44,378 nt of DNA from Acidobacteriota bacterium (lineage in GTDB: Bacteria > Acidobacteriota > Terriglobia > Acidiferrales > UBA7541). Both the position numbers and the translations under genes were made by a program. Location: NCBI GenBank assembly GCA_003154775.1, contig PMES01000111.1, positions 1 to 44,378 of the forward strand, given 5' to 3'. The notes beneath the pieces were generated by a model. It saw only the letters and a program-made list of their open reading frames with translations. It did no database searches and was not told the DNA's origin. Shown piece by piece: positions 752 through 36,974 of the stretch. Position 1 is the first letter of the stretch; every line of letters begins with the position of its first letter.

Positions 752-1285
752 TCAATCGTGTGACTCCGGCTCTGTCCTCTCGCTCAGCTTAAGAAGAAAC
801 AGCAACAATGGCGAGAGCGATAAATTGTCCACGACGCCGTTGCCGTGAACCAACTCACGCAGCTCCGTTCGATTGAACCACCGAATCTCAATGACTTCCG
901 CAGGATCGAATCCCCGCTCGGTCTCGGCCGCGTCACTCGTCCAGAAAATCTCAAAGCGCTGGTCGCTGCAACCATACGAGGCATAGCAATTCATCCACGG
1001 AACCAGCGACCTCGCCCGGTAGCCGCTCTCTTCCTCCAATTCTCTCGCTGCTGCTTCCGCCGGTGTCTCTTCCAGGCCTACCGCGCCAGAGGGAATCGCC
1101 CACACGTATTCATCCACAATGGGCCGGTACTGTCGTATCAGCAGCACGTCTGTACCTCGCGTGACGAGCACGCCTACGGCGGGGCGCGGAAACTCAATGA
1201 TGTAGTACTGCTTGCTTGAGCCGTCATAGGAATTCAATTGCTTTCTCACCACGGAAAAATATGGGTTCTGGGACGGTATCTCCAT
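752..1285 (-). CDS. Nudix hydrolase, ADP-ribose pyrophosphatase-like
   Basis: A 177-residue Nudix protein. The Nudix box is complete: G, five residues, E, seven residues, REL, EEESGY, at about residues 67-89, giving the metal-binding REUXEE core. Length and the N-terminal strand with the LLIRQYRP motif fit the ADP-ribose/nucleoside-diphosphate-sugar pyrophosphatase (NudF) branch, which hydrolyses NDP-X to NMP and X-phosphate. It is the last gene of the minus-strand run that starts with the EPS export genes, 330 bases after the acyltransferase, so it may be transcribed separately. A housecleaning role for nucleotide sugars is inference. The start at 1285 has only a weak ribosome-binding site. 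Confidence 0.85.
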   Translation of the reverse strand: MEIPSQNPYFSVVRKQLNSYDGSSKQYYIIEFPRPAVGVLVTRGTDVLLIRQYRPIVDEYVWAIPSGAVGLEETPAEAAARELEEESGYRARSLVPWMNCYASYGCSDQRFEIFWTSDAAETERGFDPAEVIEIRWFNRTELRELVHGNGVVDNLSLSPLLLFLLKLSERTEPESHD

Positions 1286-1615
1286 GTCAATTGTGTGCGG
1301 ACTCTAACGCTCCGGTCGGCACAATCCTCCTGAATCAGTTTGTACTCTCCGTATTCAGAATGTCATCGCTGTGGCAGGCTCAGCAAGCGTGACTAGCGTT
1401 TCTTCGCGTGCTGAGATCTGGGGAAGATCGCCCCTTACTCGCCGACTGGCCCGGACTGCAAATGCCAGGGCGACTCTGGGTGCCCAGCTCTGGTAGTGGG
1501 AGGGTGGGTTGCGGAGATCAGCGGGAAATCGAAAGGACGGTCCACAAAATACTCCGAATTCTTAACCACGGGGACTAACGGACGGCTGTGAAAGATCTGT
1601 TCCTGGTTTGGCCCG
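1286..1615. other. Intergenic region between acyltransferase and Nudix genes
   Basis: About 330 bases with no supported gene. It may hold the Nudix promoter. I found no strong -35/-10 pair and no clear terminator. Confidence 0.35.
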
Positions 1616-2143
1616 TCAAGAGCTTTCTCCTTCTCTCTCCTTTGCTCTGATTGGCTTCAAGCCGCGCGTGAAATCCTCTTGTTCCGTATCGAAAGTGAGA
1701 GGTACAGTTATTTTGCCGAATGCTTTGATTCGGGGCATCCCGCAAAGGGTATAGGGCGGGATGCTGTTTTGCACCGTTGAGCCAGCCGAAATCACAGCGC
1801 CTTCGCCAATAGTCAACGTTTTCTCCTGCGCGCACACGATCAAGCAACCCGCGGTAATGATTGCTTGCTTTTCGATAACGATCTTGCCGGGACTCCTAGT
1901 ATGAGCAACACTAGTATGCGCTACAACCGTAGAACGGAGCCCGATCACAGCGCCATCATGAATCTCCACGCATTCGGGATATTCATTTTCAAGGTAAACG
2001 TCATCGCCGATAAATACTCTGCCGCAGATTTTAACGCCGCGCAACCGATGAAGAAACGGCCTTAGATTAGTCGACCCGGGCAGGAACCTGGCCATCAGAT
2101 GCAGGATGCGGTTGAAGATTCTTCTGGGCAAAGTTTTACTCAT
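1616..2143 (-). CDS. Hexapeptide-repeat acyltransferase
   Basis: A 175-residue protein with irregular hexapeptide repeats ([LIV]GxxxxI-type turns, such as the VFIGDDV, AVIGLRSTVV and LTIGEGAVISAG segments) over about residues 35-150, the signature of a left-handed beta-helix acyltransferase. A short basic N-terminal stretch of about 35 residues precedes the helix. A histidine in the VVAHT segment is a possible catalytic base. The family (WcaF/CysE/LpxA-like) moves acetyl or longer acyl groups from CoA or ACP to hydroxyls or amines, often of sugars. It follows the FabZ-like, ACP and LuxCE genes in the same run, so it could use the acyl product of that module; this is inference. Confidence 0.78.
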   Translation of the reverse strand: MSKTLPRRIFNRILHLMARFLPGSTNLRPFLHRLRGVKICGRVFIGDDVYLENEYPECVEIHDGAVIGLRSTVVAHTSVAHTRSPGKIVIEKQAIITAGCLIVCAQEKTLTIGEGAVISAGSTVQNSIPPYTLCGMPRIKAFGKITVPLTFDTEQEDFTRGLKPIRAKEREGESS

Positions 2144-2262
2144 AGCTCGGTCGCTATCTTCTCCTGATCAACAGATACATCTTTGTTATTCATGCAGCCA
2201 GTTCAAACCGATTCCGCGACGGCGAGAGCCACGCCAACCGCGGCAGTTTGGGTCGCGCATAT

Positions 2263-2703
2263 TCACACAATCTTGCGGGCAAAGCTCAGCTTGCCCCGCG
2301 CCACCACTGTGTCCTCCACGCGGGCGACTCCTTCAACCAAGGCCGCTTCCTCCGTCATTTTGAGGATGTTCACTTCGATAATCATGGTATGACCTGGCAA
2401 GACCGGCACCAGGAACTTCATGTCGTTTACGATGGCCAAGACCATGAATTCCTTTGGGTTCATGCCTTTCCCAGTGGTACAGCTAAACAGGATGGATGCG
2501 CTTTGTCCGATGGCTTCAATGATAAAAGTTCCAGGCATGATGGCAAAATCAGGAAAGTGTCCCAGGAATTGAATCTCGTTGCCTGTGACGTTCTTCAGGG
2601 TTTTGATGCGTTTCCCAGGTTCCCACTCCAAGACCCTGTCCACCATAATGAGCGGGAATCGCTGCTTTAAATGTGCTTTTACTTCTTCAAAGGTCATGGT
2701 CAT
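2263..2703 (-). CDS. FabZ-like 3-hydroxyacyl-ACP dehydratase (hot-dog fold)
   Basis: A 146-residue single hot-dog protein close to FabZ length. The N-terminus has the FPLIMVDRVLEWEPGKRI pattern typical of FabZ. The catalytic histidine lies in LGHFP (about H49), followed by MPG and the catalytic glutamate in IIEA (about E63), with a downstream glutamine as in FabZ. The family dehydrates 3-hydroxyacyl-ACP to trans-2-enoyl-ACP. No ketosynthase is in the window, so this is probably a pathway-specific copy acting on acyl chains carried by the local ACP, not a full elongation cycle. Two methionines two codons apart (2703, 2697) could both serve as start. Confidence 0.85.
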   Translation of the reverse strand: MTMTFEEVKAHLKQRFPLIMVDRVLEWEPGKRIKTLKNVTGNEIQFLGHFPDFAIMPGTFIIEAIGQSASILFSCTTGKGMNPKEFMVLAIVNDMKFLVPVLPGHTMIIEVNILKMTEEAALVEGVARVEDTVVARGKLSFARKIV

Positions 2704-2782
2704 GAATCATCGATTGAAAATTCGGTTTGACCGCCATTCACACAGCTGGAAACTGGTCCCTATTGCAATTCCATGATCCTCC

Positions 2783-3682
2783 TCAACGCCGGTGCAGCAC
2801 CATGCCCAAAGCACGCGGAAGAAAACGGCCACCAGGAGCAGGGACGCCCGCATCACAGATCAACCGGGTAACCCGGAGGCCGACTTCCTCGGCCATCTTC
2901 ACGGGCTCACTTTCGTGATGAAACTCAAAGGTGTGATCACGCTGGGCTGATTCCAGCGCAGTGCTGAAAAAGACGAGCCCGTCGTCAGCGAGATGATGCG
3001 CTAGCACGGCAAACAAGGGGCGCGGATCTTCCAAATGTTCTGCCAGCATGGCGGCAATAATTCCTTGATATGCTCCGCGGTTCTCCGTCAGGTTCAATTT
3101 TAGGGCGTCTTTGACCTCAAAGGCTACCCGGTGACCATGCCCGGAGACGCCAAGCAGCCGATTTGCCACAGCCACCGCCGGCGGACTGATGTCGAAACCA
3201 TTTACATGGATGTCCGGCCTTGCCTCGGCCGCCAGCAGGCCCATCACTCCATGACCCGAGGCCAACTCCAGGAGTTTAGCGCCAACTGGCAGCGATTTCA
3301 GAAAATCATCCCGATATAACGCGATGTGGCTGACCATCGAGGGCCAGAAAGGATAAATCAAAATCGCAGCCCACATGTAGGGAACCATGTAGCCTTCGTC
3401 TTCATAAACTTCCGAGATGAGGTCTGGCATGCTTTCAGGCGTGTACCGGCCGCTTTTCTCATAGAGTTGTTGGCACTTCCACACGCCCAAACAATACTTG
3501 GCGTAGCCCTTCGCCGCATCTTCAAAGGCGCGGTCGCCATAGGCCGCCTCCGCCCAGCGGGCAAGCGGGTCCAACATCCAGGAACAGAGTGCTTCATTCG
3601 CCTCAAACGTGGCCCGGGCAGAGGGAGCAAACGTCTTGGCTTTTGTCTCCAGACCTCTAAGAAACGCCTTGGCATCCATCAT
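2783..3682 (-). CDS. SAM-dependent methyltransferase (class I)
   Basis: About 299 residues. A Rossmann motif I is visible as LLELASGHGVMGLL in the middle of the protein, followed by an acidic turn (NGFDIS) that would bind the SAM ribose. The first ~140 residues form an extra, mostly helical domain rich in aromatic residues. The start at 3682 is preceded by AAGGA about 11 bases upstream; a longer frame to 3724 would overlap the LuxC gene by 16 bases and is less likely. It sits directly after LuxC, so the methyl acceptor may be a product of the acyl module or the polymer it decorates. No specific O-, N- or C-methyltransferase subgroup can be named. Confidence 0.8.
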   Translation of the reverse strand: MMDAKAFLRGLETKAKTFAPSARATFEANEALCSWMLDPLARWAEAAYGDRAFEDAAKGYAKYCLGVWKCQQLYEKSGRYTPESMPDLISEVYEDEGYMVPYMWAAILIYPFWPSMVSHIALYRDDFLKSLPVGAKLLELASGHGVMGLLAAEARPDIHVNGFDISPPAVAVANRLLGVSGHGHRVAFEVKDALKLNLTENRGAYQGIIAAMLAEHLEDPRPLFAVLAHHLADDGLVFFSTALESAQRDHTFEFHHESEPVKMAEEVGLRVTRLICDAGVPAPGGRFLPRALGMVLHRR

Positions 3683-3708
3683 AATTTTAGTTGTCCTTGG
3701 TAGTGCAT

Positions 3709-4965
3709 TTAGTCTGTCGAGCAAACATGACGAACCATTCGGACCATGGGCCGGATTAGATCAACGCCGTCCCACGGAGGAACAAAGACGTGCATGCGCC
3801 CCAGTTTCACGATTCGGTCCACACCTCTTTTCCCGGCCAGCCAGGCAAGTTTTCTTTCTTTCTCCGGATCGGCCATGCCCAGACCCAGAGTCTGCACATT
3901 TCCATCGAATTTTGAAACCGGATCAAGCAAATTGTCCACTTCCAGTACCGTCAAGGTCTTACCTTGAATGGGTGGAGGAAGATCCGATCCCGAGCCGAAC
4001 AGCAACGTCCAATCCGGACCCATCGGAAAGACTGCCTGATGCGCGGCGTCGTTCAGCAGCCAGGACGCGCGTGCCTGGCAAATCTTTGAAGTCAAGGCGG
4101 CAGGAATGGTTCGCCGCGGATGCGCCTGGTTTTCGGTTTCAAAGGCACGCTGCAGATTCGACAGAAATTGAGCGGTTGACCGGCCCGCCCCTTTTTCGAG
4201 GTACAAAACCTGGGGTGAGGAACAGGCCTGTTGGTCAAATTGCCAGACATCCCGCGCCATGCGCACGCACCAGGACTTCTGTTCGTCGGGGTTGCCCCAA
4301 GCCCCTGCGTCCATCGCTGCGACAGATATCCGGGGTCCGAAAACCGCCACTCTCGCCCAATGGGGAAACGGTAAGGCCCGAATCTGCAAAACGGCCTCTT
4401 CTCCGCCCCAAATCATGGCTCCGTCCACGACTTGCGCCATTGCTTCCTGCAAATCCCGCCGGCCATGCTCGAACGCAGCCATAAATATGCGTCGGGTCAA
4501 CCGTTCGCCCGGGTCGCTTTGTACCAACTTTTCCATTAAAACCCGCGTCAAGTCGACAAGACCGCTTGGAATGCGTACCAAGGCGGCATTGCCCCCTAGA
4601 AGAGCGCAGGTCATGGACAGAATCGGCTGGATTTCTACATTGCCAGCGGGCCAGTGGCCCACCACGCCCAAGGGGAAAGCCTTGCACTTAGCACGACCAT
4701 ATTCCGTCCAACCGCCATGTAGACCATTGGACCCGAGTTCGCGGGCAATGATGGGTTCTAAAGTTCCCCGCCTTAGCCACATCCGAAGGAAAACGATCCC
4801 GGGCAGATCGTCAAATTCGCGGACGTCTAAGCTCTTCGCCCAAGAATCAAAAACGGTCATAACCTCATTCGGTGAAATTTCCGCGTCCAATACCGCTTGA
4901 CGCAGTTTGGTTGCGGCCGTGGAGATCTCCGCGGGTGAATGAACCGTATGAGTAAGCTCAGTCAT
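3709..4965 (-). CDS. luxC: LuxC-family acyl-CoA/acyl-protein reductase
   Basis: A 418-residue member of the LuxC family, NADPH-dependent enzymes that reduce an activated fatty-acyl group to the aldehyde and are distantly related to aldehyde dehydrogenases. Visible marks: WPAGNV at about residue 105, QQACSSPQ with the presumed catalytic cysteine at about 248, and a conserved C-terminal block with LGRMHVFVPPWDG ending in VRMVRHVC. In luminous bacteria LuxC works with LuxE and LuxD; here LuxE is 15 bases upstream, but luxA, luxB and luxD are absent. The aldehyde must therefore serve another purpose, for example alcohol or lipid formation or attachment to a polymer. No strong Shine-Dalgarno at 4965. 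Confidence 0.9.
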   Translation of the reverse strand: MTELTHTVHSPAEISTAATKLRQAVLDAEISPNEVMTVFDSWAKSLDVREFDDLPGIVFLRMWLRRGTLEPIIARELGSNGLHGGWTEYGRAKCKAFPLGVVGHWPAGNVEIQPILSMTCALLGGNAALVRIPSGLVDLTRVLMEKLVQSDPGERLTRRIFMAAFEHGRRDLQEAMAQVVDGAMIWGGEEAVLQIRALPFPHWARVAVFGPRISVAAMDAGAWGNPDEQKSWCVRMARDVWQFDQQACSSPQVLYLEKGAGRSTAQFLSNLQRAFETENQAHPRRTIPAALTSKICQARASWLLNDAAHQAVFPMGPDWTLLFGSGSDLPPPIQGKTLTVLEVDNLLDPVSKFDGNVQTLGLGMADPEKERKLAWLAGKRGVDRIVKLGRMHVFVPPWDGVDLIRPMVRMVRHVCSTD

Positions 4966-4980
4966 CGAAAGACTCGTAAT

Positions 4981-6105
4981 TCAATCCATTGGCGATCGTT
5001 TACTTTCGAGATTCCCGCAGCCTCGGAGTTCCGCCTTGGGTATCCGTCCCGCAAATCGGAAACTGATGCCCCGTCTCCCACAGGGGCAACCATCATAAGC
5101 GATCACTTGGGCCATGTCTTCAGTGAGTAGCAGGTGGCCTGGGAAGCTCGTTGGTAAAACACTGCAGACCTGAACAATGCCATGTTCTCCTGCCGCGACG
5201 GGTTCGAGGGTGAGCGGGTTTCGCACAATCACATCGCCGAACACGGGTCCATGTTTGTTGCCCGCCGAGCAATCCGGATAGATGACTCCCACACTCTCTA
5301 CCATGCCATAGAAATCGATGATGCGCTCAGGGGAACATCCAAACACGTGAGCCAACTGTTCGTTGAACACCGTTTTATCAACGGCCTGGTCCTGCAAACG
5401 CTTCCAGCCGCCGCTGTGCAGGATCCGGGCTTCCCGCAAGTTGAGACAGATACCTTCTGCCAGGAGAGGCTCCACCAAGTGTTTCCAGAGAATAAACGTA
5501 AAGCCATACACCAATAACTCCGTATCCTGGCGGTCGCGGGCGAATTCTCTCAGTCGGTCCCGATCCAGCATCAGGCCACCTTGCTCACTTAGGCTAAGGC
5601 AGTGGGTGGTCTCATTGGCAAAAGGCTGCAACCCTTGAATCGCCGCGCCCCTCGCCCCCAGCTCGTTTCCGCCTCCTAGGAAACCCGGTGTGTCCACAAC
5701 CAAGTAAGGTCTGCGGGCCGGACCGATAAAATCCCGGACAATGGCTACGATTCCTTTGGTCATGCGTCGCGCGGTCGGCGCATCGAGCACCACGCGGCTG
5801 GGCACCTGAGACGTTGTAGCGCTCGAGGTTAAGGTTCTTTTGATCTCACCGGGACTAACGAAAGACAAGGGGGGATTGGCTTTCAAAATTCCCACCGGCA
5901 GAAAGGGAAGATCGGCAACCTGAGCAGCAGATCGATAGTCCTTTGGCCAATGCCGGACATAGTTCTTATAGCCGGCGTGCCGCTGGCATGCGTAATCGAG
6001 CTCCTCCTTAAGTATTTCCAACAGACCCGCCTGTCTTTCCTCAGGAGGCTGACCATAAGGAGGCATTGAGAGAAGGCGGTCTATTCTGTCTTCAAATGGA
6101 TGCAT
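4981..6105 (-). CDS. luxE: LuxE-family acyl-protein synthetase
   Basis: A 374-residue LuxE-type enzyme. In luminescence LuxE activates a fatty acid with ATP, takes the acyl group on a cysteine near its C-terminus and passes it to LuxC. Visible: an adenylate-forming-like TSSATTSQVPSR loop at about residues 91-102, a DFYGMVES segment like the YGxTE motif of AMP-forming enzymes, and a C-terminal GCPCGRRG plus LRGCGN. The cysteine at about 363 is placed like the acyl-accepting cysteine (364) described for Vibrio LuxE. AAAGAG lies 6 bases before the start. It is packed between the ligase (13 bases) and luxC (15 bases), indicating cotranscription. Confidence 0.9.
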   Translation of the reverse strand: MHPFEDRIDRLLSMPPYGQPPEERQAGLLEILKEELDYACQRHAGYKNYVRHWPKDYRSAAQVADLPFLPVGILKANPPLSFVSPGEIKRTLTSSATTSQVPSRVVLDAPTARRMTKGIVAIVRDFIGPARRPYLVVDTPGFLGGGNELGARGAAIQGLQPFANETTHCLSLSEQGGLMLDRDRLREFARDRQDTELLVYGFTFILWKHLVEPLLAEGICLNLREARILHSGGWKRLQDQAVDKTVFNEQLAHVFGCSPERIIDFYGMVESVGVIYPDCSAGNKHGPVFGDVIVRNPLTLEPVAAGEHGIVQVCSVLPTSFPGHLLLTEDMAQVIAYDGCPCGRRGISFRFAGRIPKAELRGCGNLESKRSPMD

Positions 6106-6118
6106 AGAAACTCTTTGC

Positions 6119-7579
6119 CTAAATGGGAAGCGATGAAAGCGCTATTTTCCCTGTGGACGTCTTTGGCAATTCCGAAACCAAACGAATCGAGTCGATCGTC
6201 CAATGGGCTGGAAGGTGACGGCGAACTTCTTCCACCCCAATTCTCGCTTCTTGATCGGGCACGATAAACAAAACCAGCGCTTCTCCCACTTCCGGATGAT
6301 CGATGGCACTGGCGGCGCACTCATAAACCCCTGGAATCGCTGTGACTCTTGCTTCAACTTCCGGAAAACTTACCCGCATTCCTCGCATTTTCAGAAATGC
6401 CCCTTTGCGTCCTTCGATCCATAGATAACGTTCCTCATCTTGCCGAGCCAGGTCCCTGGTGCGCAGCCAACCGTCAGAGAAGACGCGACGCGTTTCTTCC
6501 GGATCGTTCAAATAACCGGAGCAGATCGACGGTCCCTTCACCAGCAGCTCACCGATTTGCCTCGCGGGCAAATCATTTCCTTCTTCATCGACGATCCGAA
6601 CCGTCAGGTTGTCCAAAGGTCGGCCCACGCTTCCTGACTTCTCCTCCCAGCGTTCCGGTTCCATACACGATATCCGAGCGGTTGCTTCGGTTTGCCCATA
6701 CATCACATAGAACTTAATCAGCGGGAAAACCTCCCGCATCTCACGGATTCTCTGGGACGCCAAGGCCCCTCCAGCCTGGAGAAAACGCCTCAAGCAAGGC
6801 ATGGCGATCCCGCGAATGTTCGATCGTCGAAGTAGCGCATTATAAACTGTCGGCACGCCGGCGAATGTGGTGCAACCATATTCAGTTATGGCTTGGAGCA
6901 CTTTATCAGGAAACATAAAGCGGCGGTCAAACACTACGCCACCGCCCTGGTAGAGATGCGACTGCATCAGGCTCGCCCCGAAACAGTAGCTCACTGGGAG
7001 AATCAGCATGGCTCTTTCGTCGCTGGCCAATCGTTGGCTGCGGATGATGGCTTCCGTATTGGCAATCAGGTTCCCATGGCTGACCATAACGAAACGAGGA
7101 ACACCGGTGGAACCGGAGGTGGCCATCAACGCCGCAAGATCCGATGCTACGCAAGCAGCAGGCGGCATCATTTTGGGGAGATCCTTGGCCAAGTCACCCT
7201 GCAGGCAAAGGATGGATCCCTTGTGAGGCTCTCCCCCCCGAAGACCTGTTTCAGTCCACACGGCTTTGGCGCCCGTTGCTTCCACCAGCATTGTTGCTGA
7301 GGCTCTCACGGCGCGATCTTCCACCGGCACCGCTACGAGGCCCGCATACAGGGCTCCCAAATAAACCAAGGTGCTGGAGGGAGAAAGAGAACAACCGATT
7401 AGCACGCGATCGCCCTCCCTCAAACCAGCGGATATTAAGGAGGCGCCATAAACTGCAATCAGCCGCGGCAAATCCTCCGGGCAAATCGTGCTGCTGGTGG
7501 CCGCATCGATTAAGTAGGAAAAGGGTCCTAGGCGCTCTACCAATCGCGCGGCGAAATTCCATTCGGCAGTGGCTGTCAC
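6119..7579 (-). CDS. AMP-forming acyl-CoA/acyl-ACP ligase
   Basis: About 486 residues of the ANL superfamily, which activates a carboxylic acid as acyl-AMP and transfers it to CoA or to an ACP thiol. The P-loop-like TSGSTGVPR is at about 154-162, YGQTEAT in the middle, the TRD/GRKGAFLKMRG hinge near 370-400, and the catalytic lysine in TSTGK at about 478. I chose GTG at 7579, one base after the ACP stop; a longer frame to 7633 would run 53 bases into the ACP gene. The adjacent free-standing ACP suggests the acyl group is loaded onto that ACP, as in fatty-acyl-AMP-ligase systems; the acid itself cannot be told from sequence. Similar ligase/ACP pairs occur in exosortase-associated loci. Confidence 0.88.
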   Translation of the reverse strand: MTATAEWNFAARLVERLGPFSYLIDAATSSTICPEDLPRLIAVYGASLISAGLREGDRVLIGCSLSPSSTLVYLGALYAGLVAVPVEDRAVRASATMLVEATGAKAVWTETGLRGGEPHKGSILCLQGDLAKDLPKMMPPAACVASDLAALMATSGSTGVPRFVMVSHGNLIANTEAIIRSQRLASDERAMLILPVSYCFGASLMQSHLYQGGGVVFDRRFMFPDKVLQAITEYGCTTFAGVPTVYNALLRRSNIRGIAMPCLRRFLQAGGALASQRIREMREVFPLIKFYVMYGQTEATARISCMEPERWEEKSGSVGRPLDNLTVRIVDEEGNDLPARQIGELLVKGPSICSGYLNDPEETRRVFSDGWLRTRDLARQDEERYLWIEGRKGAFLKMRGMRVSFPEVEARVTAIPGVYECAASAIDHPEVGEALVLFIVPDQEARIGVEEVRRHLPAHWTIDSIRLVSELPKTSTGKIALSSLPI

Positions 7580-7580
7580 T

Positions 7581-7835
7581 TTATACTTTCTTGGGAAGTT
7601 TCTTCGAAATGATGCGCACGATCTCGCGAACATTCTCCATTTCCATCAACTCATCCACATCCAGGGTGATCCCGAAAACCTGCTCCAGATTACTGGCGAG
7701 AGACAAATGGCCCACAGAATCCCAGCCAGGGATGTCACTTGCATTGGTCTCCAATGACACCAATTGCGGGTCGATGTCAAAGGCGGCTTTGAAGGCCTCC
7801 CGGACTTTGCTTAAGATGTAATCTGTATCGTTCAT
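7581..7835 (-). CDS. Acyl carrier protein
   Basis: An 84-residue free-standing carrier protein. The serine in GWDSVGHL (about S40) is the expected 4'-phosphopantetheine attachment site, and the helical, acidic pattern with a hydrophobic C-terminal helix fits the family. AAAGGGG lies 5 bases before the ATG. The next gene, an AMP-forming ligase, starts one base after the stop, so the pair is likely translationally coupled and functionally matched. It would be the carrier for the acyl chain handled by the FabZ-like, FabL-like and LuxC/LuxE neighbours. It is separate from housekeeping AcpP: the lysine-rich tail (ISKKLPKKV) and the context differ. Confidence 0.92.
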   Translation of the reverse strand: MNDTDYILSKVREAFKAAFDIDPQLVSLETNASDIPGWDSVGHLSLASNLEQVFGITLDVDELMEMENVREIVRIISKKLPKKV

Positions 7836-8017
7836 TTGCCCCTTTCGTGCATCTGTTTGAAGTTACGCTTCTGAGTGCTTGCTCTTAGGTGATAACGCAG
7901 TGGCAGTCGGTTCTTAAAATGCGTTGCTGCTAGCGAGTTCATAGAACAACCTGCTCAAAACAGCTTCGCCCTTGGCACAACGTGTCACAGAAAAGCAAAG
8001 TTTTTGGGTTCATAAAC
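7836..8017. promoter_or_regulatory. 182-base gap between SDR and ACP genes, possible internal promoter
   Basis: This is the largest gap between the export genes and the acyl genes on the same strand. It could hold an internal promoter for the ACP-ligase-LuxE-LuxC unit. I see no well-matched -35/-10 pair and no clear terminator hairpin, so readthrough from upstream is equally possible. Confidence 0.25.
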
Positions 8018-8791
8018 TCAGGCCATGATCCCCGTACCACCATCAAGGACAAGGGTATGGCCAATGATCCCTGCGGCCGCATCGGAGCAAAGGAATTGGG
8101 CCCCATACGCGACTTCCTCGGCTGTGACCAAGCACCCTGTCGGGGTACGACGGATGGTCTCGGCGATGCGCGCTTCGCTATTTGGCACCGCTTGCCAGGC
8201 ATCGGTGAGCACTGCTCCGGCCGTTAGAATGTTGACGCGGATGCCACGCGGCGCGAGTTCGACGGCGAGATGGCGCGCCAGCGCCTCAAGCGCGCCCTTG
8301 GACGAACCGACCAACGAATAGCACGGGAGGGCACGTAAGGCTCCCCAGGAACTGACCGCGACAATGCTTGACCCTTTGGAAAGGCGCCCCATAAGAAGCT
8401 TAATCAACTTGAAAAAGGCGCGGACATTTAGGTTAAATGTCCAGTCGAAATGGCGCTCGGTGAGTTCTTCGATTGGGCGGTGGATCCCAGTGGCAGCACA
8501 ATGAACCAACCCAGAAAGATGCGGAACCCGTTCCTGTAGCGAGCGGTCAAGTTGTTCTAGACCTCTTTCGTTGGTCAGATCTGCACGACACAGCGCAATG
8601 GCCAAACCTTCCTCCGTAGCGATCGCCTTCAAGTGTTCGGCAGCCTTTTCGTTGCGGAGATAGTTCGCGATTACCGTTGCACCGGCCCGCGCGAAGCGAA
8701 GTGAAATGGCTTGGCCGATGCCGCGCGTGCCCCCGGTAATCAAGAAAGTTTTGTTCGACAAAGAAAACAGATCATTCCCAGTAGTGCTCAT
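8018..8791 (-). CDS. SDR oxidoreductase, FabL-type enoyl-ACP reductase-like
   Basis: A 257-residue classical-length SDR. The nucleotide motif TGGTRGIG is at about 19-26, favouring NADP(H). The active-site tyrosine and lysine are spaced Y-x6-K (Y158, K165, in YSLVGSSKGAL) rather than the usual Y-x3-K. That spacing is characteristic of enoyl-ACP reductases FabI/FabL, and the N-terminal TGGTRGIGxAI pattern is FabL-like. The C-terminus has the usual LVLDGG. With a FabZ-like dehydratase and ACP in the same run, reduction of an enoyl-ACP is a reasonable inference; a ketoreductase role is the alternative. Its ATG overlaps the stop of the upstream 130-codon gene as ATGA, implying translational coupling. 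Confidence 0.85.
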   Translation of the reverse strand: MSTTGNDLFSLSNKTFLITGGTRGIGQAISLRFARAGATVIANYLRNEKAAEHLKAIATEEGLAIALCRADLTNERGLEQLDRSLQERVPHLSGLVHCAATGIHRPIEELTERHFDWTFNLNVRAFFKLIKLLMGRLSKGSSIVAVSSWGALRALPCYSLVGSSKGALEALARHLAVELAPRGIRVNILTAGAVLTDAWQAVPNSEARIAETIRRTPTGCLVTAEEVAYGAQFLCSDAAAGIIGHTLVLDGGTGIMA

Positions 8792-9180
8792 GCGGATTCA
8801 GTTCCTTTTTCCAGAGAAATTGCTCTTGGGACGCCATTAGCGTTCAAGCAACAGAGTTGCATTGCCATTTCTCGAAGCACTTCGGAGCCGGAAGGGGGCA
8901 ACTTTGCAACAAAAACGTGGCGGGCATGATTCCAAGGACTACTTGCGTTGTCAAGGGCAAAGCACAACTTGGAAGAGCCATTCAACAAGACCAAGTATCG
9001 ACGACGAATCCAGATTCGACCAGGGGCGCTCGTCCTGCGGAACTGTGATACTTCAACAGTTATCTTGTCGACAACCGAAGCGTGCAAAACCACACGTCCA
9101 CGGCTGAGAGACTTCACGCGCAATCGAAGAAATGAAGTCTGCAGAAACCTTGCTCGATGACTCAGATCCGGTCTGTTCAT
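8788..9180 (-). CDS. Uncharacterised 130-residue protein between ATPase and SDR
   Basis: I do not recognise this protein. It is basic in its first half, with no membrane segment or signal peptide, and has a weak beta-rich pattern in the middle. Support comes from position: its ATG overlaps the stop of the ExeA-like ATPase gene as ATGA, and its own TGA overlaps the ATG of the next SDR gene as ATGA. Two such overlaps in series are unlikely for a spurious frame. A small PilZ-like or cluster-specific adaptor was considered, but no diagnostic RxxxR or DxSxxG pattern is seen. Function unknown. Confidence 0.6.
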   Translation of the reverse strand: MNRPDLSHRARFLQTSFLRLRVKSLSRGRVVLHASVVDKITVEVSQFRRTSAPGRIWIRRRYLVLLNGSSKLCFALDNASSPWNHARHVFVAKLPPSGSEVLREMAMQLCCLNANGVPRAISLEKGTESA

Positions 9181-22213: not shown

Positions 22214-23236
22214 TCAACGAGCTCGAATCCTGGCGGTTGCCAGCAGGCTTCGCTTCGCCGCCCCCGCAGCGCGCCAGAGTGGAGAACGGCGGACGCTCTC
22301 TCCAGCAAACCCGACGAGGTTTCTCAGCGGAGTCCAGCCAAATGCTGCTCGCATTTCCTCAGGGCTGAGCTTGTTGTCCTGACCCAGCATCAATTTACCT
22401 AAGTCGACATTTTGGACGCCGATCCATGGATCGACCCTTAATGGCCCAAGATACACTTCTCCTTTGCGCTTTGTCTCTTCGGAGAGCAGTATGTCGATAG
22501 CCTCTGGATAGGCCGCACACCCGTTGTCGCTGAGGTAATTCTCACGAAACACCTGAGTCGGTGTGCCCCAAATAGAAACTTTGGCACCAAAGTAGAGAGC
22601 GTAGAAAACATGGCTGCCATAACCGTCGGTTGTCACGTATTCGAATCTTTCGAAGAGCGCGCGCATGCGATTCAGTGCATTAGTGTCGGCTATTCCGGCA
22701 CCGCGTATTGCCTCGATACCTTTTTCTGTAAATTGAGAACTCCATAGGCCTTTCGCAATGCAGTAAGGCGAGACACAGGCGGCCACAAGGCCAAATCTGT
22801 CTTTTATAGAGGCAATTTCAAGGACGTATTGTTCGGTTGAAGGCATCAGAACGTCAGACGCGAGCGAGTGGGTAGGCATGACCAGCAGACTTTTGGGTAT
22901 CCTCTGCAAACCTGAAGGTTGGGTGTAAATGATCGGTAGTCCGATGGCTCGCACCCTGCGGTAGCCAGCAGGCTTCAAAAAGGTGACCTCGTCTTGTCGA
23001 GCGACGAAACACGTGGTTGACTTTGGGGCATCATATACGATGATCTCGGGCTGGATCTGCTGCCATGGAGGCCATACGCCGTGCTGCCAGTTGCCAGGGA
23101 AACGGGGCGGGACCTTTTGCAGTCCGCAGTAATCTGCAGCCACCTGAAGCGCCCCATAGAAGTCGCCACCAAATGATTGCCTCCAAGCCCTCAGCCTGAT
23201 CTCATTTACCGGGGGCAGGCCTGTGCTTGCGTCCAT
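22214..23236 (-). CDS. Putative GT-B-like surface-polysaccharide protein
   Basis: About 340 residues. I do not recognise a named family. Two halves are visible: a first domain ending near the IIVYDAPKS and RRVRAIGLPIIYT segments, and a second with TTDGYGSHVFYALYFGAKVSIWG, which resembles the donor-side fold of GT-B glycosyltransferases and capsule-synthesis proteins. AAAGGA lies 6 bases before the ATG at 23236, so the gene appears to begin intact even though an IS5-type element ends 13 bases further upstream. The open frame runs on to 23785 through the element, but that part is not real. The insertion probably separates this gene from its upstream promoter. Confidence 0.6.
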   Translation of the reverse strand: MDASTGLPPVNEIRLRAWRQSFGGDFYGALQVAADYCGLQKVPPRFPGNWQHGVWPPWQQIQPEIIVYDAPKSTTCFVARQDEVTFLKPAGYRRVRAIGLPIIYTQPSGLQRIPKSLLVMPTHSLASDVLMPSTEQYVLEIASIKDRFGLVAACVSPYCIAKGLWSSQFTEKGIEAIRGAGIADTNALNRMRALFERFEYVTTDGYGSHVFYALYFGAKVSIWGTPTQVFRENYLSDNGCAAYPEAIDILLSEETKRKGEVYLGPLRVDPWIGVQNVDLGKLMLGQDNKLSPEEMRAAFGWTPLRNLVGFAGESVRRSPLWRAAGAAKRSLLATARIRAR

Positions 23237-23249
23237 GACGGATCCTTTA

Positions 23250-24166
23250 GAAGCTGTTGCACAACCGGGTACAAGCCATTGAGATAAGGGTAGTTGGGGT
23301 TTTTGAAATGAGCGATAAGCAAAGTCAGCAGCGCCGAGGGAGGGCCGATGGCACGGTCGCGACCGTTGCCGACCGAAGCGCAGTGGAAGAAAATCGCGCC
23401 CTTGCTTCCCAAGCCACCCAAACACCGCAAGGGCGGTCGTCCGTGGATCGACGACCGTCGTGTGCTGGAAGGGATTTTGTGGATTCTGCGCAGCGGCGCT
23501 CGCTGGCAGGATCTGCCAGAGAAATATCCACATCCCTCGACGTGCTGGCGGCGGCTGCGCGACTGGGAGGAGCAAGGCGTCTGGCTGAACATCTGGCGCG
23601 TCTTTTTGAGCGAGTTGAACGAGCGCGAAGAACTGGACTGGAGCGGATCGTTTCTGGACGGCAGTTTCGCTCCGGCGAAAAAAGGGGCGCAGGAGTCGGG
23701 AAAACCAAGCGGGGCAAGGGGACGAAGTGGATGGTGGTGGTCGACGGCCAGGGTGTTCCTCTGGGAGACCAGCTTCACTCTGCATCCCCGGCGGAAGTCC
23801 GGCTCGCGGAAACGACGCTCGCGGCGATCCGCGTAGGCCGCCGACATCGCGCGGGCCGGCCGCGCCAGAAGCCGGTGCGCGTGATTACCGACAAAGCGTA
23901 CGACAGCGATCCGTTGCGGGATCGTTTGCGAGGGCGCGGGATCGAACTGATCCGCCCGCACAAGAGCAATCGTGTTCGCCCCGCAACACAAGATGGCCGC
24001 GCACTGCGCCGCTATCGAAAACGGTGGATCGTGGAACGCACCATCGGCTGGCTGGGGAACTTCCGCCGCTTGGTGGTGCGCTACGACCGCTCGCTCAAAA
24101 TCTATGGCGCGTTCTTTCATATCGCCTGCTTCATGATCGTCTTACGGAGGGTTGTGCAATAGCTTC
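23250..24166 (+). mobile_element. IS5-family insertion sequence, complete
   Basis: 917 bases bounded by 17-base terminal inverted repeats with one mismatch: GAAGCTGTTGCACAACC at 23250-23266 and the complement of GAAGCTATTGCACAACC at 24150-24166. Inside is a two-frame DDE transposase on the plus strand, opposite to all host genes. No matching target duplication is visible in the bases just outside the ends (TTTA on the left, CAGG on the right), so the flanks may have rearranged. It separates the GT-B-like gene from the DUF4910 gene. Confidence 0.88.
23348..24162 (+). CDS. IS5-family transposase made by -1 frameshift
   Basis: The first frame starts at 23348 (GAGGGAGGG just upstream) with the DUF4096-type N-terminal domain and the first catalytic Asp in LDGSFAPAKKG. 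The second frame, one base back, continues from about 23683 as GAGVGKTKRGKGTKWMVVVDG and holds the second Asp (VITDKAYDSD) and the Glu (RWIVERTIGWLGNFRR). The switch is at AAAAAAGGGG (23678-23687), a homopolymer suited to -1 ribosomal frameshifting or transcriptional slippage. The joined protein is about 271 residues, the size of complete IS5-type transposases. The stop codon lies in the right inverted repeat. Probably active. Confidence 0.88.
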
Positions 24167-24299
24167 CAGGAAAACTTTGAACGAGTAAGTGTTCTCTCGA
24201 AGTTGAGCCGAGGAATTTGGACGCGCGGGATCTTGGGCGGGCTCAACCTTGCGCCCAAAGCGACGTGGCGGTTAGCTCAGAAATAATCCGGTATACTGG

Positions 24300-25586
24300 T
24301 CAAAGCAGGTCAATCAGCCTCTTAACGGCCCATCGCTGAAGGTACTCAAGAGTCTCTTTTTCGGGCAGCCCAACGTGGTCGGCAACTGCTTTAACGCTGA
24401 CCGGGCGATCCAAGGCCGGCACGAAGTCCATCAGGCATCGCATCTGCCTTCCTTGGGCGGAGAGGGTGTCGCCCAGGGCGATCTGGCCATAGTCGACGTA
24501 GAGGTCATATTGCGGATTGGACAGGCAGACGTTGCCCTCGAATTTCTTTATGACCAGGGGCGACGCTTCTAGCCAATCCACGGCTCCGATTAGGGCGTCA
24601 ACAGCTTCATTGAGCGAAGTTTCCTCGATAATCTCCATACTGTCCCGGCTGGAATGATATTCAGGATAGGGAAACCTTGAAAAGGAAAGCATCGGAATAC
24701 CGTAATTCTCCCAGACGTACTCGTCGTTGACAATAATGCTTTCGAACGGGCCGGTTCGGTAAGAGAGGCCAAGCTGGTCGAGGCTGGCCTTAAGGGCATG
24801 CAGCGCGCTGACCAAGCAGCGCCGGGATTCCTGAACCGCAAGAGGTGTGGCGGATCCAAGCATTTCCAGAAAGATACCTTCCAGAATCCGGCTACGCTCC
24901 GACTGGTTCAGCCCGGCAAGATATAGCTCCGAACCGATGATGCCTGGTGAAAGGACAAGGGAATACGTGAATTTGGTCTTTCGGTCTAGCAGGCGGCGCA
25001 GAACCTCCAGGCCCACCACGCAACCCGCCAATCCGTCGTTGGCCGCACCCGCATGATCCAGGTTGCCACCGAGGACGATGGTGAAGTCGAGCGAGCCCGG
25101 GTGTTTGTATTCGAGAATCTTTAACGCACCAGGAGCTTCCTCCGTGCGGATTACGACTTCATAATAACCCGGGGCGAGCTGGTCGAAGATTCGCTTCGGC
25201 ATGCAGAATCCCCAATCGCGACTCCAGCTCCGGAATTGCTGCCGATAGTGGCAAGGAATCGAGTCGTCATGGCGGTGGTCGTAATGGAGGTGGCGTCGGA
25301 GTTCCTCCAGACTTACCGTTCCGGAAAAGCTCTTCGAGAGTCCGATCACCCCAAGCGGATGGGCGGTGCCATCGTAAACGGTGCGGCCGTCTTTGACGAT
25401 TCTGGCCTCCTCGACGTCCCACGAGGGAGGAATCACCCATCCGTTGTGCTCGCGGGAACTCGGCACGGAGATCACGCGAAACGGCAGCACCTCGCGCAGA
25501 TAATCCACAGCCTGATCGTAACCGAGCGAACAAACAGCCCGATTGAGCGGCGTGAGGTCCCGCAAGATTTGCATCATGGTTTTCAT
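24300..25586 (-). CDS. DUF4910 / M28-like aminopeptidase-domain protein
   Basis: 428 residues. The LGGNLDHAGAANDGLAGC segment near 185 carries a His and an Asp spaced as in zinc aminopeptidases of the M28 fold, and YHSSRD near 310 supplies a further His/Asp. The C-terminal ~70 residues resemble a winged helix (VKAVADHVGLPEKETLEYLQRW). This DUF4910/DUF2172-type architecture is recurrent in surface-polysaccharide clusters and is not known there to act on peptides; it may act on amide-linked sugar or lipid modifications. It lies 8 bases after a polysaccharide deacetylase gene. Family assignment is fairly firm; the function is open. Confidence 0.78.
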   Translation of the reverse strand: MKTMMQILRDLTPLNRAVCSLGYDQAVDYLREVLPFRVISVPSSREHNGWVIPPSWDVEEARIVKDGRTVYDGTAHPLGVIGLSKSFSGTVSLEELRRHLHYDHRHDDSIPCHYRQQFRSWSRDWGFCMPKRIFDQLAPGYYEVVIRTEEAPGALKILEYKHPGSLDFTIVLGGNLDHAGAANDGLAGCVVGLEVLRRLLDRKTKFTYSLVLSPGIIGSELYLAGLNQSERSRILEGIFLEMLGSATPLAVQESRRCLVSALHALKASLDQLGLSYRTGPFESIIVNDEYVWENYGIPMLSFSRFPYPEYHSSRDSMEIIEETSLNEAVDALIGAVDWLEASPLVIKKFEGNVCLSNPQYDLYVDYGQIALGDTLSAQGRQMRCLMDFVPALDRPVSVKAVADHVGLPEKETLEYLQRWAVKRLIDLL

Positions 25587-34309: not shown

Positions 34310-35094
34310 CCGCCGTCGACATGGAGATCTTGTCCGGTGATATAACTCCCGGCATCGGAGCAAAGCAACGCAACGGCACCCTTGAGGTCATCGGGTTGCC
34401 CAATGCGGTTCATTGGATTCTTGGCGGCCAACCGTTCCATAAATTCCTTATGCTTCTGGGTCGGCGGATGCGGAAAAGCACCGGGGCTAAGAGCGTTCAC
34501 GCGAATGCCATACGGCGATAGGAAGCTGGCAAGGTATTTGGTGAATTGAATAACTCCTGCCTTGGCTGCACCGTAACTCGGTGGATTCGCAAACTCTTTT
34601 CCATCATACATCCGGTAGTCGGGTCCAAGGTGGCTGTACAGCGAACCGATGTTGAGGATTACCCCCCGGGTGGTTTTCAGATCAGGGAAAGCCGCCTTGG
34701 TCATACGAAAGACCGAGTTCAGACTTATGTTGACGTCATACTCCCAATCTTTATCCGTGATCGACTCCCAAGAGTTCTTATTGCCTGACCACGCGTTGTT
34801 AACGAGTATGTCGATGGCCTTGAAGTGCTCGTGCACCTGAGCAAAGAACTCCGTTGCGGAATCCTTCTTTAACAAGTCAAGTTCCAATGCAATTGCCTTA
34901 ACTGAACCTCCCGTCAGCCGGACGATTTCCTCACATTTTTTCTCGCATTTCGCTCGGTCTCGGCTGGCGATGACCAAATTGGCACCAAGCTCGGCGAACG
35001 TCTCGCTAATGGCGGTACCTAGATAGCCAGCGCCGCCCGTGACGACCGCGGTTTTATCTTTCAACGAGAGCAACTCTCTCAGGGATTTATTCAT
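34294..35094 (-). CDS. SDR oxidoreductase, PtmA-like (copy 2)
   Basis: 266 residues. TGGAGYLGT near 19-27, NNAWSGN near 96 and the active-site YGAAK near 182 are visible, and the protein ends in VDGGWGVW, like copy 1. The two are paralogues of the same layout, with an insertion before the tyrosine (YRMYDGKEFANPP here). The 4-base overlap with the CMP-sugar synthetase gene upstream shows tight coupling to nonulosonate activation. Campylobacter PtmA, an SDR of the legionaminic-acid locus, is the nearest known context. Whether the copies act in sequence (oxidation then reduction) with the Gfo/Idh protein between them is open. Confidence 0.85.
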   Translation of the reverse strand: MNKSLRELLSLKDKTAVVTGGAGYLGTAISETFAELGANLVIASRDRAKCEKKCEEIVRLTGGSVKAIALELDLLKKDSATEFFAQVHEHFKAIDILVNNAWSGNKNSWESITDKDWEYDVNISLNSVFRMTKAAFPDLKTTRGVILNIGSLYSHLGPDYRMYDGKEFANPPSYGAAKAGVIQFTKYLASFLSPYGIRVNALSPGAFPHPPTQKHKEFMERLAAKNPMNRIGQPDDLKGAVALLCSDAGSYITGQDLHVDGGWGVW

Positions 35095-35792
35095 AAGTTC
35101 GATTCTTTCAGTAACGCCTCAGCGATAATGAAGTCGACGCTATCATCAATGTCTTGGGACCGGTCTCGCGGCATCAATACGGCGCCGAGCTTTCCCACTA
35201 ATAAGGACTTAGCTTCCTGTGCAAGTAAATTTGCACGGAATACATAGACCGCACCGTTCAGCTGGTAAGCCTTCGGCAGCTTCTGCCGGGGCAGCCAGGG
35301 AATGGAGCCCTCAATGAACACTTCTGGAACGCCATCGACGAGCCGCCAGGCCCGGTGCGGATTCAAGTCGGCGTCCTTGAAAGTAGCGACCGAATCGTAA
35401 CCGCCTTGGCCGACAAGCTTCAGGCAGTCGCGCACATCGTCCGCCGCGCGCAGAGGACAAGTCGGTTCAAGCAGGATGACCCATTCCGGCGTCTCACCCT
35501 CCGACCGGAGCGTCTGGAGAAGATCCTTGAGGGCATCAATCACCAGAGCCTCGTCGGTCGCAAGATGCGGCGGGCGCGCGTACACTTCTGCACCATGAGC
35601 CTGGCCGACCGATGCAATCTGGGTGTCGTCGGTCGAAACAATGATGCGGTCGATCTCGCTCACCTGCTGCGCCACTTCAATCGACCAGACAAGCAGCGGT
35701 TTTCCTCTCAGCGGCCGGACATTTTTCCCGGGCACCGATTTGCTGCCGCCCCGTGCAGGAATCACCGCGATGACTCGTTTTCCGTTCAGCAT
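35091..35792 (-). CDS. neuA: CMP-nonulosonate cytidylyltransferase (NeuA/LegF-like)
   Basis: About 233 residues. The N-terminus VIAVIPARGGSKSVPGKN holds the CTP-binding signature of CMP-sialic/legionaminic acid synthetases. IIVSTDD near 50, LLEPTCPLR near 105 and DIDDSVDF near 213 (metal-binding acidic pair) complete the family pattern. ATG 35792 fits the family start; the frame runs up to 35912 inside the previous gene. It follows the CBS-nucleotidyltransferase by 22 bases and overlaps the SDR by 4. It makes the CMP-activated donor of the nonulosonic acid. Sequence alone cannot decide between sialic, legionaminic and pseudaminic-type substrates. Confidence 0.9.
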   Translation of the reverse strand: MLNGKRVIAVIPARGGSKSVPGKNVRPLRGKPLLVWSIEVAQQVSEIDRIIVSTDDTQIASVGQAHGAEVYARPPHLATDEALVIDALKDLLQTLRSEGETPEWVILLEPTCPLRAADDVRDCLKLVGQGGYDSVATFKDADLNPHRAWRLVDGVPEVFIEGSIPWLPRQKLPKAYQLNGAVYVFRANLLAQEAKSLLVGKLGAVLMPRDRSQDIDDSVDFIIAEALLKESNL

Positions 35793-35814
35793 GGGATGCG
35801 GCGCGTCGGCTTCA

Positions 35815-36906
35815 TTATTCAATAATGCCCCGCGTGCCCAACCGGCCCAGGCTGTTGAGCGCCTTGCGGTATTCGGTCCATTCCCCGGTGTCGATCCAGG
35901 CATTCTCGCCAATCGGGAAGACGCCGATGCGCCCTCCGACCCTTTTGATCTGCTCGATGAATTCGGTCATGTCGCACCGTGTTTGCTCCGGAATCAATCC
36001 AAGCCGATCCCGGCGCACGACATACATCCCAGTATTCACGAGAAAGCTGTATTGCGGCTTTTCCGTGATGCGGGCAAGGCTGCCACCCTTTTCGAGTTCA
36101 CACACTCCGTATGGAATGTGATAGTCCTTGAGCGACGCGACTAGGGTGAGGTCGTAATTGTTGTCCGTATGGAATGATACGAGCTCGGCGTAGTCGGACT
36201 GGATCACGATATCACAATTGGTGACGATCAAATTCTCCGGCGTAGACGAATACAGCGCCCGCAGACTGCCGGCCGTGCCGCGCGGCTCTTTCTCCTCCAA
36301 GTACGTCACGGAGTAGCTTGGGGCAAGCTCTTCAAAAAAGGATTTGAGGATCTTGGATTTGTAGTTGATCGAGAGGTAAAAACGATCGAGACCGTAGGGC
36401 AGAAATTGGTCGATAATAATTTCGATGACCGTCCTGTCACCCACCGGAATAAGTGGCTTGGGAAGAACACTGGTGAAAGGCGCAAGCCGAGTCCCTTGGC
36501 CCCCGGCCATGATGACGACCGGCAGATTGAGGCGACGCTTCGCTTTGATTGCGTCCCCGCCTTGGAACATCTCCTTCCAGAACAGTAGTTGCACTATTTC
36601 TCGGGACGGATTGATGACGGGAACGCAGCCGAAATTGCCGTTCAGCATGTTGGCACGGACCTGTTCGGTCCTAAACCCCTCTTCAACGACATAGGATTTG
36701 CGATTACAGATGTGAAGCACCTGCGCCTTGAGGTCCCCGTCGGACAAGATCCAACGTCGTATGTCGCCATCCGTAAGGGAACCGATCAGCCGTGACTCCT
36801 CGTCAACCACGAAGACAATTTTTTCCTCTGTTTTCTCCAACTGCTCCATCGCCTGCCGGATGGTATGCGTCTGGGGTATGAGAAACGGCGCAACGTTGTC
36901 ATTCAT
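35815..36906 (-). CDS. CBS-domain nucleotidyltransferase (PtmE-like)
   Basis: About 363 residues. The first ~115 residues are a CBS pair (VFVVDEESRLIGSLTDGDIRRWI, then FGCVPVINPSREIVQLL). The rest is a nucleotidyltransferase with VIMAGGQGTRLAPFTSVLPKPLIPVG near 130-155, TNCDIV near 230 and a C-terminal IDTGEWTEYRKAL. This CBS-NTase layout is that of PtmE, which makes GDP-glucosamine for legionaminic acid in Campylobacter. Its presence suggests a GDP-linked route and that the NeuC-like epimerase works on GDP-sugar. The CBS pair may allow control by a nucleotide. The ATG at 36906 is preferred to 36951. Confidence 0.88.
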   Translation of the reverse strand: MNDNVAPFLIPQTHTIRQAMEQLEKTEEKIVFVVDEESRLIGSLTDGDIRRWILSDGDLKAQVLHICNRKSYVVEEGFRTEQVRANMLNGNFGCVPVINPSREIVQLLFWKEMFQGGDAIKAKRRLNLPVVIMAGGQGTRLAPFTSVLPKPLIPVGDRTVIEIIIDQFLPYGLDRFYLSINYKSKILKSFFEELAPSYSVTYLEEKEPRGTAGSLRALYSSTPENLIVTNCDIVIQSDYAELVSFHTDNNYDLTLVASLKDYHIPYGVCELEKGGSLARITEKPQYSFLVNTGMYVVRRDRLGLIPEQTRCDMTEFIEQIKRVGGRIGVFPIGENAWIDTGEWTEYRKALNSLGRLGTRGIIE

Positions 36907-36974
36907 GGGTATCGTCTCGCATGATCTTGGCAGATTTGTCCTGTTGGTCAAGGGAAACTTCTCTGGGTTGAGTT

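Follow-up and report, generated by a model that had tools for sequence, protein, structure and literature searches.

The acyl-thioester reductase LuxC and the acyl-protein synthetase LuxE are known above all for their part in light emission. Here we analyze a gene module that encodes both proteins (the Lux module) in a 44,378-nucleotide stretch of DNA from an Acidobacteriota bacterium (contig PMES01000111.1, assembly GCA_003154775.1); this whole stretch is referred to below as the window. In addition to LuxC and LuxE, the module codes for a short-chain dehydrogenase/reductase (SDR), an acyl carrier protein (ACP), an AMP-forming acyl ligase, an S-adenosylmethionine (SAM) methyltransferase and a FabZ-like hydroxyacyl dehydratase (Table 1).

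The closest described gene sets belong to flagellin glycosylation islands, which we cite here from the available parts of the respective papers. ACP, 3-oxoacyl-ACP reductase, AMP synthetase, luxE and luxC occur together in Group II flagellin-glycan islands (98 Aeromonas strains; PMC7874193), where the authors suggest a liposugar component and speak of a fatty aldehyde substrate; the deletion that they describe spared the acyl genes and removed those lying between pseC and luxC. Flagellin glycosylation islands of Enterobacteriaceae contain ACP, LuxE, LuxC, a CaiC ligase and FabG, with FabZ in one strain (PMC4875605). Deletion of a luxE homologue in non-luminous Riemerella altered growth and invasion, and the same paper cites a LuxE domain in Vibrio cholerae RfbN, linked to tetronate making (PMC4772473). 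Tetronate acylates the amino groups of perosamine; wbeL is predicted to act in its synthesis, and a wbeL deletion was without O antigen (PMC3441752).

The window shares the five functions of the Aeromonas Group II island, likewise in a glycan locus, and its ACP, AMP-ligase, LuxE and LuxC genes follow one another on one strand, which is the layout of the Aeromonas flagellin glycosylation island (FGI) II-type module. However, luxC is followed by the glycosyltransferase gene fgi-1 in Aeromonas and by the methyltransferase, FabZ and hexapeptide-repeat genes in the window. The Aeromonas-type module also has a FabG-type Y-x3-K reductase, whereas the window SDR has Y-x6-K and is nearest to FabL; therefore, we class the window module as a variant and not as a member of the narrow Aeromonas FGI II type. 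Moreover, the Aeromonas islands are tied to flagellin glycans, and no such link is apparent for the window. The Enterobacteriaceae islands share the families of the window, including FabZ in the one strain, but the part of that paper available describes no luxC-tied methyltransferase and no FabZ beyond that strain. The variant with methyltransferase, FabZ and FabL-type SDR was not found in the open-access literature. The ACP-SDR-ligase-LuxE-LuxC set was already known (PMC7874193, PMC4875605), which an earlier note on this DNA had not mentioned; the dedicated methyltransferase, FabZ and usually a Y-x6-K SDR appear to be new.

On balance, sequence comparison favors the view that the module, which probably spreads horizontally, is a variant of the glycan-acyl kit already known as ACP/SDR/AMP-ligase/LuxE/LuxC and would supply a cell-surface polysaccharide with a reduced, methylated substituent of acyl type.

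Conservation and distribution of the Lux module

We surveyed 396 genomes of the phylum, including that of the window. LuxE (PF04443, E up to 1e-10) is present in 34 of them; three have a methyltransferase of the window type (E up to 1e-20). One of these three is genome G318, whose methyltransferase (L126, 2964-4082) is 36% identical to that of the module and stands without Lux genes over the 14 kb read. Among 200 genomes of the class searched for the window LuxC protein, 4 were positive, again counting its own, and none of the 19 other same-genus genomes was.

A scan of contigs for LuxE produced 36 loci, labelled as Acidobacteria (8), Verrucomicrobiota (2), Mycobacteriaceae (1), Clostridium (19), Asgard archaea (5) and Woeseiaceae (1). 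The set of 15 window-type loci that we compiled consists of the eight Acidobacteria-labelled, two Verrucomicrobiota and one Mycobacteriaceae loci, together with L033, L093, L095 and the window itself; L094 was dropped as a duplicate, being by its length, positions and scores the same 7,840-base contig as L064. Three of the loci are truncated: L059 ends before the methyltransferase and FabZ, L063 ends before FabZ, and L093 starts at the ACP. Genes of these loci, and of the barrel loci described below, were called with a simple longest-open-reading-frame (ORF) script, whose errors included antisense ORFs displacing some ACPs and FabZs, and the counts of ACP, methyltransferase and FabZ rest instead on a separate search for relatives.

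The methyltransferase gene follows LuxC in 14 of 14 loci that reach that far, the window included, and FabZ is then present in 13 of 13 (L059 and L063 excluded). The FabL-like SDR is found in 11 of 14 loci, being absent from L064, L090 and L095. In a 22-row tree, LuxE sequences of all 15 loci form one clade with a support of 100/100, and the methyltransferases in a 10-row alignment are 62-83% identical to that of the window. Across 13 loci, pairwise identities of ligase, LuxE and LuxC correlate at r 0.93-0.94, and the remaining pairs, those with methyltransferase, FabZ and ACP, at 0.73-0.90. As judged from these comparisons, the Lux module is a conserved unit, with gene order kept over 15 loci in genomes labelled as three phyla. 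The earlier note had suggested looking for its LuxC-LuxE-ACP-ligase neighborhood beside Wza/ExeA-like genes in other genomes; the neighborhood itself recurs at the 15 loci, but such a cassette is not seen upstream of it at any of the 12 loci other than the window that have sequence there.

That the module occurs in distant taxa yet is missing from the other same-genus genomes searched points to lateral transfer, and it probably spreads horizontally. The taxon labels of metagenome-assembled genomes, above all the lone Mycobacteriaceae one, could be binning errors. One locus looks mosaic: in L093 (170-5731) the methyltransferase and FabZ are 78-82% identical to those of the window, whereas LuxE and LuxC are just 63-65% identical.

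Protein families and active sites

The family matches agree with the gene content given in the earlier note, namely SDR, ACP, ligase, LuxE, LuxC, methyltransferase and FabZ-like genes on the same strand. The same is true of the 1, 13 and 15 bases that it reported between the ACP, ligase, LuxE and LuxC genes, provided that the ligase starts at GTG 7579; this start was placed by hand from reading frames and agrees with the lengths of relatives.

The ACP serine, the LuxC cysteine (A-C-S/T-S-P), the LuxE cysteine (RGC) and the FabZ histidine and glutamate are intact in the window and in every window-type row aligned; we take the aligned LuxC and LuxE cysteines to be catalytic. The window and 10 of 10 other window-type rows shown retain the C-terminal lysine of the ligase, and the TSGSTG motif of this enzyme is intact in the window. 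The FabZ-like protein scores 124.6 bits with the PRK00006 FabZ model (cut-off 113) and 126 bits with TIGR01750, below the cut-off of 155.

The tyrosine and lysine of the SDR are spaced Tyr-x6-Lys in 11 of 11 window-type SDRs, as aligned with FabL (PDB 3oic), which is also the best PDB match of the window SDR (E 8.6e-47). All 10 other aligned SDRs, found near shorter or scrambled LuxC/LuxE sets, have the FabG-like Tyr-x3-Lys. The Tyr-x6-Lys spacing is presumably a signature of enoyl-ACP reductases. Since the score of the window SDR is below the FabL equivalog cut-off, we claim functional likeness and not FabL membership.

The predicted model of the methyltransferase has a mean pLDDT (predicted confidence) of 76. 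Its nearest folds are generic methyltransferases, including the natural-product type RebM, with template modeling (TM) scores of 0.35-0.50 normalized by query length, so that C- and O-methylation are not distinguished by the model.

LuxE occurs as a single copy in the genome, and the only second PF05893 match, on another contig, has 22.1 bits, barely above the cut-off of 21. Both Lux proteins are homologous to the subunits of the luminous LuxC-LuxE fatty acid reductase (PDB 7xc6): LuxC matches chain A (6.7e-14) and LuxE matches chain E (1.8e-12), with its cysteine aligned. The window nevertheless differs from the luminous system. The genome, which is 98% complete, has no match to Bac_luciferase (PF00296), a search that was positive in 10 of 14 control genomes, which bears out the earlier claim that luxA/B are missing. 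A search for LuxD (PF02273) gave no match in the genome, but none in the control genomes either. The ketosynthase, also said to be lacking, indeed has no match on the contig of the module; matches in the genome are confined to contigs C49, C51 and C101.

Glycan genes around the module

To characterize the surroundings of the module, we scanned 30 chosen flank proteins from nine window-type loci (L033, L057, L061, L062, L063, L065, L090, L093 and L095) with Pfam; nine of the 30 had no match at E 1e-5. The flanks hold GT2/GT4 glycosyltransferases, a Polysacc_synt flippase, an ABC2 and Wzt_C exporter, a dTDP-sugar epimerase, Wzz/Wzc-type proteins, PIG-L deacetylases and a FemAB/GNAT protein. Eight of the nine loci have one or more genes of glycan type, L061 and L062 by virtue of one each. 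The glycan genes of the window itself lie beyond 13.9 kb.

A hexapeptide gene lies near the module in 9 of the 15 loci, on the opposite strand in L060 and L061; in L033 and L062 the relatives are placed after FabZ. In the window, the acyltransferase assignment made in the earlier note stands in part: several acetyltransferase models match the protein, with up to 48 bits, but each of them, like the Pfam model, falls below its cut-off. GNAT acyltransferases upstream of the ACP in L064, L095 and L090 had been considered as well, a guess that was dropped because Pfam gave an unrelated match for L064 (E 0.049), no match for L095 and a GNAT match of E 0.26 for L090.

The same surroundings bear on the possibility that the product of the module is a fatty aldehyde or alcohol of long chain length, destined for ether lipids, wax or a lipid anchor, with its position in glycan clusters being incidental or reflecting a glycolipid anchor. 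Long-chain fatty acid reduction is the chemistry of luminous LuxC/LuxE, that complex is the nearest solved structure, and the ligase matches long-chain fatty-acid-CoA ligase models, although below their cut-offs. The fatty aldehyde substrate and liposugar of the Aeromonas authors point the same way (PMC7874193, available part). However, the window proteins are far below the luminous equivalog cut-offs (76 versus 750 bits for LuxC and 54 versus 550 bits for LuxE), 8/9 annotated loci are flanked by glycan-type genes, and the product in the V. cholerae comparator is a short hydroxy acid on amino groups (PMC3441752, available part). We consider a long-chain product unlikely.

Relation to the neighboring export cassette

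The earlier note had described the module as fused to a polysaccharide-export operon. Indeed, the two are contiguous on the same strand, and in two other loci cassette-type genes lie near the module: an ATPase relative 8.0 kb from LuxC in L093 and a Wza relative 7.2 kb from LuxC in L095, so that export or chain-length genes occur within ~8 kb of LuxC. A single integrated operon, in which regulator, Wza, barrel and ATPase act together with the Lux module, might be argued for on these grounds. However, the ATPase and SDR genes are separated by 385 bases (8792-9176), and neither unit is conserved beside the other.

A barrel homologue is present in 23 of 36 same-genus genomes, the window's own counted. 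We read 13 barrel loci (L113-L125) from the 22 other barrel-positive genomes, covering between 1 and 12 kb past the ATPase gene. In 13/13 of them, no Lux gene accompanies barrel and ATPase over this distance. The complete regulator-Wza-barrel-ATPase order is found in nine, and part of it is visible in L113 and L121; in L124 and L125 the barrels are merely 28-30% identical and one additional gene stands ahead of the ATPase. Genes after the ATPase differ among the loci, those common to L118 and L122 and to L124 and L125 excepted. Conversely, 12 of the other module loci include sequence upstream of the module (just 0.9 kb in L059), and the cassette is seen there in none of them; L060 and L093, which start with the module, are uninformative in this respect. 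Together with the absence of the window LuxC from the 19 other same-genus genomes searched, this makes an integrated operon improbable. True operon fusion was rejected, and the earlier idea of a single system is not supported: within the genus the cassette genes are found where Lux genes are lacking, and elsewhere the Lux module is found where the cassette is lacking. On the evidence of gene neighborhoods, the Lux module adjoins the Wza/barrel/ATPase cassette but is no part of it.

The 385-base gap is probably non-coding. A 130-residue ORF (8788-9180) was rejected as a gene, having no family match and a codon score of 0.009 compared to 0.046-0.094 in 13 other window genes, which are favored by being included in the reference set. 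The gap holds a promoter-like TTGACA-17-AATCAT with TG (8954-8926, minus strand); across the region such sites occur at chance (8 found versus 7.3 expected). Matches to the sigma-54 consensus number 21 versus 14.5 expected, a count reached in 8 of 100 shuffles.

With its export protein and ATPase relatives, the cassette resembles the XrtA/PEP-CTERM exopolysaccharide genes (TIGR03027, TIGR03015, TIGR03016), but all scores are below the curated cut-offs. There is no exosortase beside the export genes; the sole match in the genome is on contig C8, in a search that was positive in 1 of 14 control genomes.

LuxC/LuxE loci outside the window type

Two loci of the window's phylum (L034 and L040) have the short order ACP-SDR-ligase-LuxE-LuxC. 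Clostridium and Asgard loci (among L066-L092) have relatives of ACP, ligase, LuxE and LuxC but no methyltransferase or FabZ, with LuxE identity of 36-42%; of the 19 Clostridium loci, 18 have all four genes, and the number with a sigma-54-type regulator relative is 18 as well.

A tblastn search of plasmids detected LuxE relatives in 36 records and LuxC relatives in 48, of which six regions were read. A Deinococcus plasmid carries the short ACP-SDR-ligase-LuxE-LuxC module with a PglD-type acetyltransferase in an exopolysaccharide cluster with glycosyltransferases and a sugar transferase. A Rhizobium plasmid (Rhizobium beringeri CP140837.1; L127, 2368-14612) carries a scrambled set of acyltransferase, ACP, ligase, LuxE, LuxC, SDR, FabZ and methyltransferase. 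Grouped with this set are a GMC oxidoreductase and a transketolase in two parts; as a mere guess, the transketolase might use the LuxC aldehyde as acceptor.

Some of these loci could be taken to suggest that the product is a diffusible small molecule, such as a signal or an antibiotic-like lipid, and not a glycan decoration. Small-molecule clusters share the make-up of ACP, ligase, dehydratase, reductase and methyltransferase, and RebM is among the nearest folds of the methyltransferase model. In Streptomyces, LuxC/LuxE stand beside DUF692 and near YcaO genes; a Ponticoccus ACP-SDR-ligase-LuxE set lies near an amino-acid ABC transporter, and an Azospirillum LuxC near an ABC transporter. Yet the contig of the module has no ketosynthase match, glycan-type genes flank nearly all annotated window-type loci, and the fold match is generic. 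We consider a diffusible product improbable, and the least likely of the alternatives considered here.

Proposed function

For the favored reading, a variant glycan-acyl kit, the following steps may be envisaged. The AMP-ligase, judging from its family and tight linkage, would activate a carboxylic acid and load it on the ACP. FabZ would then dehydrate a 3-hydroxyacyl-ACP and the FabL-like SDR would reduce the enoyl bond, removing the beta-hydroxyl, as their active-site motifs and linkage suggest. By the chemistry of their families, and with active sites intact, LuxE is predicted to take or make the acyl group on its cysteine and LuxC to reduce the thioester to an aldehyde. The methyltransferase, co-inherited with LuxC and FabZ, may methylate the acyl product, and a hexapeptide acyltransferase, either this one or one elsewhere in the cluster, may join the group to a sugar. 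Accordant with the earlier note, a dedicated ACP-bound acyl chain for an exported polymer is suggested by the recurrence of the module and by its glycan flanks, but without the Wza/barrel/ATPase genes as part of the system.

If the loaded acid is dicarboxylic, LuxE/LuxC could reduce its free end to give an omega-hydroxy acyl-ACP. An omega-hydroxy acyl-ACP route through reduction of the free end of a diacid has reportedly been proposed for V. cholerae tetronate. In the O1 pathway WbeL is said to be the AMP-ligase, with roles for rfbK/M/O and, reportedly, an alcohol dehydrogenase, whereas the window has SDR, methyltransferase and FabZ. The likeness between the two, a LuxE-domain protein (RfbN) and a short hydroxy acid acylating amino groups of an exported glycan, is one of described function and draws on the available parts of the papers (PMC4772473, PMC3441752).

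Taken further, the product of the module would be a glycan substituent of a chemically new class: a methylated, beta-deoxygenated acyl chain built on the ACP, with its carboxyl reduced by LuxE/LuxC, attached through an ether, amine or hydroxyacyl amide link, the kit moving between phyla as a cassette. We regard this broader proposal as possible but doubtful.

Several observations weigh against the glycan-acyl reading. Glycan genes are found in just two (Rhizobium and Deinococcus) of the six plasmid loci read. In the stretch read, Priestia has LuxE without LuxC; this locus and those of Ponticoccus, Azospirillum and Streptomyces lie outside visible glycan clusters, so the LuxC/LuxE families are not confined to glycans, although all four loci fall outside the window-type set. 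Among the window-type loci, neither of the two flank proteins scanned in L090 is of glycan type, and flank annotation covered window-type loci only. No hexapeptide gene was found in L058, L064, L090 and L095, nor in L063, which is cut, and L093, which has the FemAB/GNAT gene. The pairing of SDR and FabZ is not absolute: FabZ occurs without the SDR in L064, L090 and L095, and the SDR is thus not essential, while the Rhizobium SDR is Y-x3-K although FabZ is present. The Rhizobium methyltransferase is no detectable relative of the one in the window. Finally, the ligase TSGSTG motif deviates in L060 and L090, and the module has no aldehyde-consuming enzyme apart from the SDR.

Other features of the window

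Coordinates of the module and of the adjoining genes are collected in Table 1.

Table 1. Genes of the Lux module and of its surroundings in the window, in order of transcription
Feature	Coordinates	Strand	Remarks
Sigma-54-type regulator	13307-12327	-	First gene in transcription order, export cassette
Wza-like export protein	12325-11693	-	TIGR03027 relative, 152 bits, below cut-off 180
Outer-membrane barrel	11681-10236	-	No Pfam match; weak TIGR03016 match
ExeA-like ATPase	10172-9177	-	TIGR03015 relative, 292 bits, below cut-off 324.5
SDR, FabL-like	8791-8018	-	Y-x6-K; best NCBIfam model FabL, 222.3 bits, cut-off 328
ACP	7835-7581	-	PF00550 2e-8; phosphopantetheine Ser in WDSVGH
AMP-forming acyl ligase	7579-6119	-	PF00501 1.3e-62, PF13193 1.2e-12; GTG start at 7579
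LuxE-type acyl-protein synthetase	6105-4981	-	PF04443 6.6e-52; acyl-acceptor Cys in RGCG
LuxC-type acyl-thioester reductase	4965-3709	-	PF05893 1.4e-52; catalytic Cys in QQACSSP
SAM methyltransferase	3682-2783	-	299 amino acids, own N-terminal helical part; PF13489 2.7e-12
FabZ-like hydroxyacyl dehydratase	2703-2263	-	PF07977 3.2e-21; His and Glu intact
Hexapeptide-repeat acyltransferase candidate	2143-1616	-	Pfam Hexapep 19.6 bits, below cut-off 27
NUDIX	1285-752	-	330 bases beyond hexapeptide gene

The NUDIX gene was rejected as a part of the module, there being no NUDIX relative in the 61 loci searched, and is probably unrelated to it.

Farther along the window follows a large glycan cluster, in which a nonulosonate (sialic-acid-like) locus occupies 35091-39842 on the minus strand, where NeuB (471 bits), NeuC (442) and NeuD (197) are all above NCBIfam cut-offs; beside them are nucleotidyltransferase, SDR and Gfo-type genes, some of which were assigned by eye. 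The glycan cluster also includes a transposase of the IS4/5 type (DUF4096), encoded in frames that overlap on the plus strand (22214-24188), antisense to a 523-residue ORF without a Pfam match, and a DUF4910/DUF2172/peptidase M28-like protein (24300-25586).

Implications

The window-type loci bring together one coherent non-luminous LuxC/LuxE subfamily with partner enzymes of its own, whose host genomes bear the labels of three phyla and whose genes mostly lie close to those for surface glycans. With this, the role of non-luminous LuxC/LuxE becomes a directly testable question, and the module predicts an as yet undescribed sugar decoration in soil bacteria.

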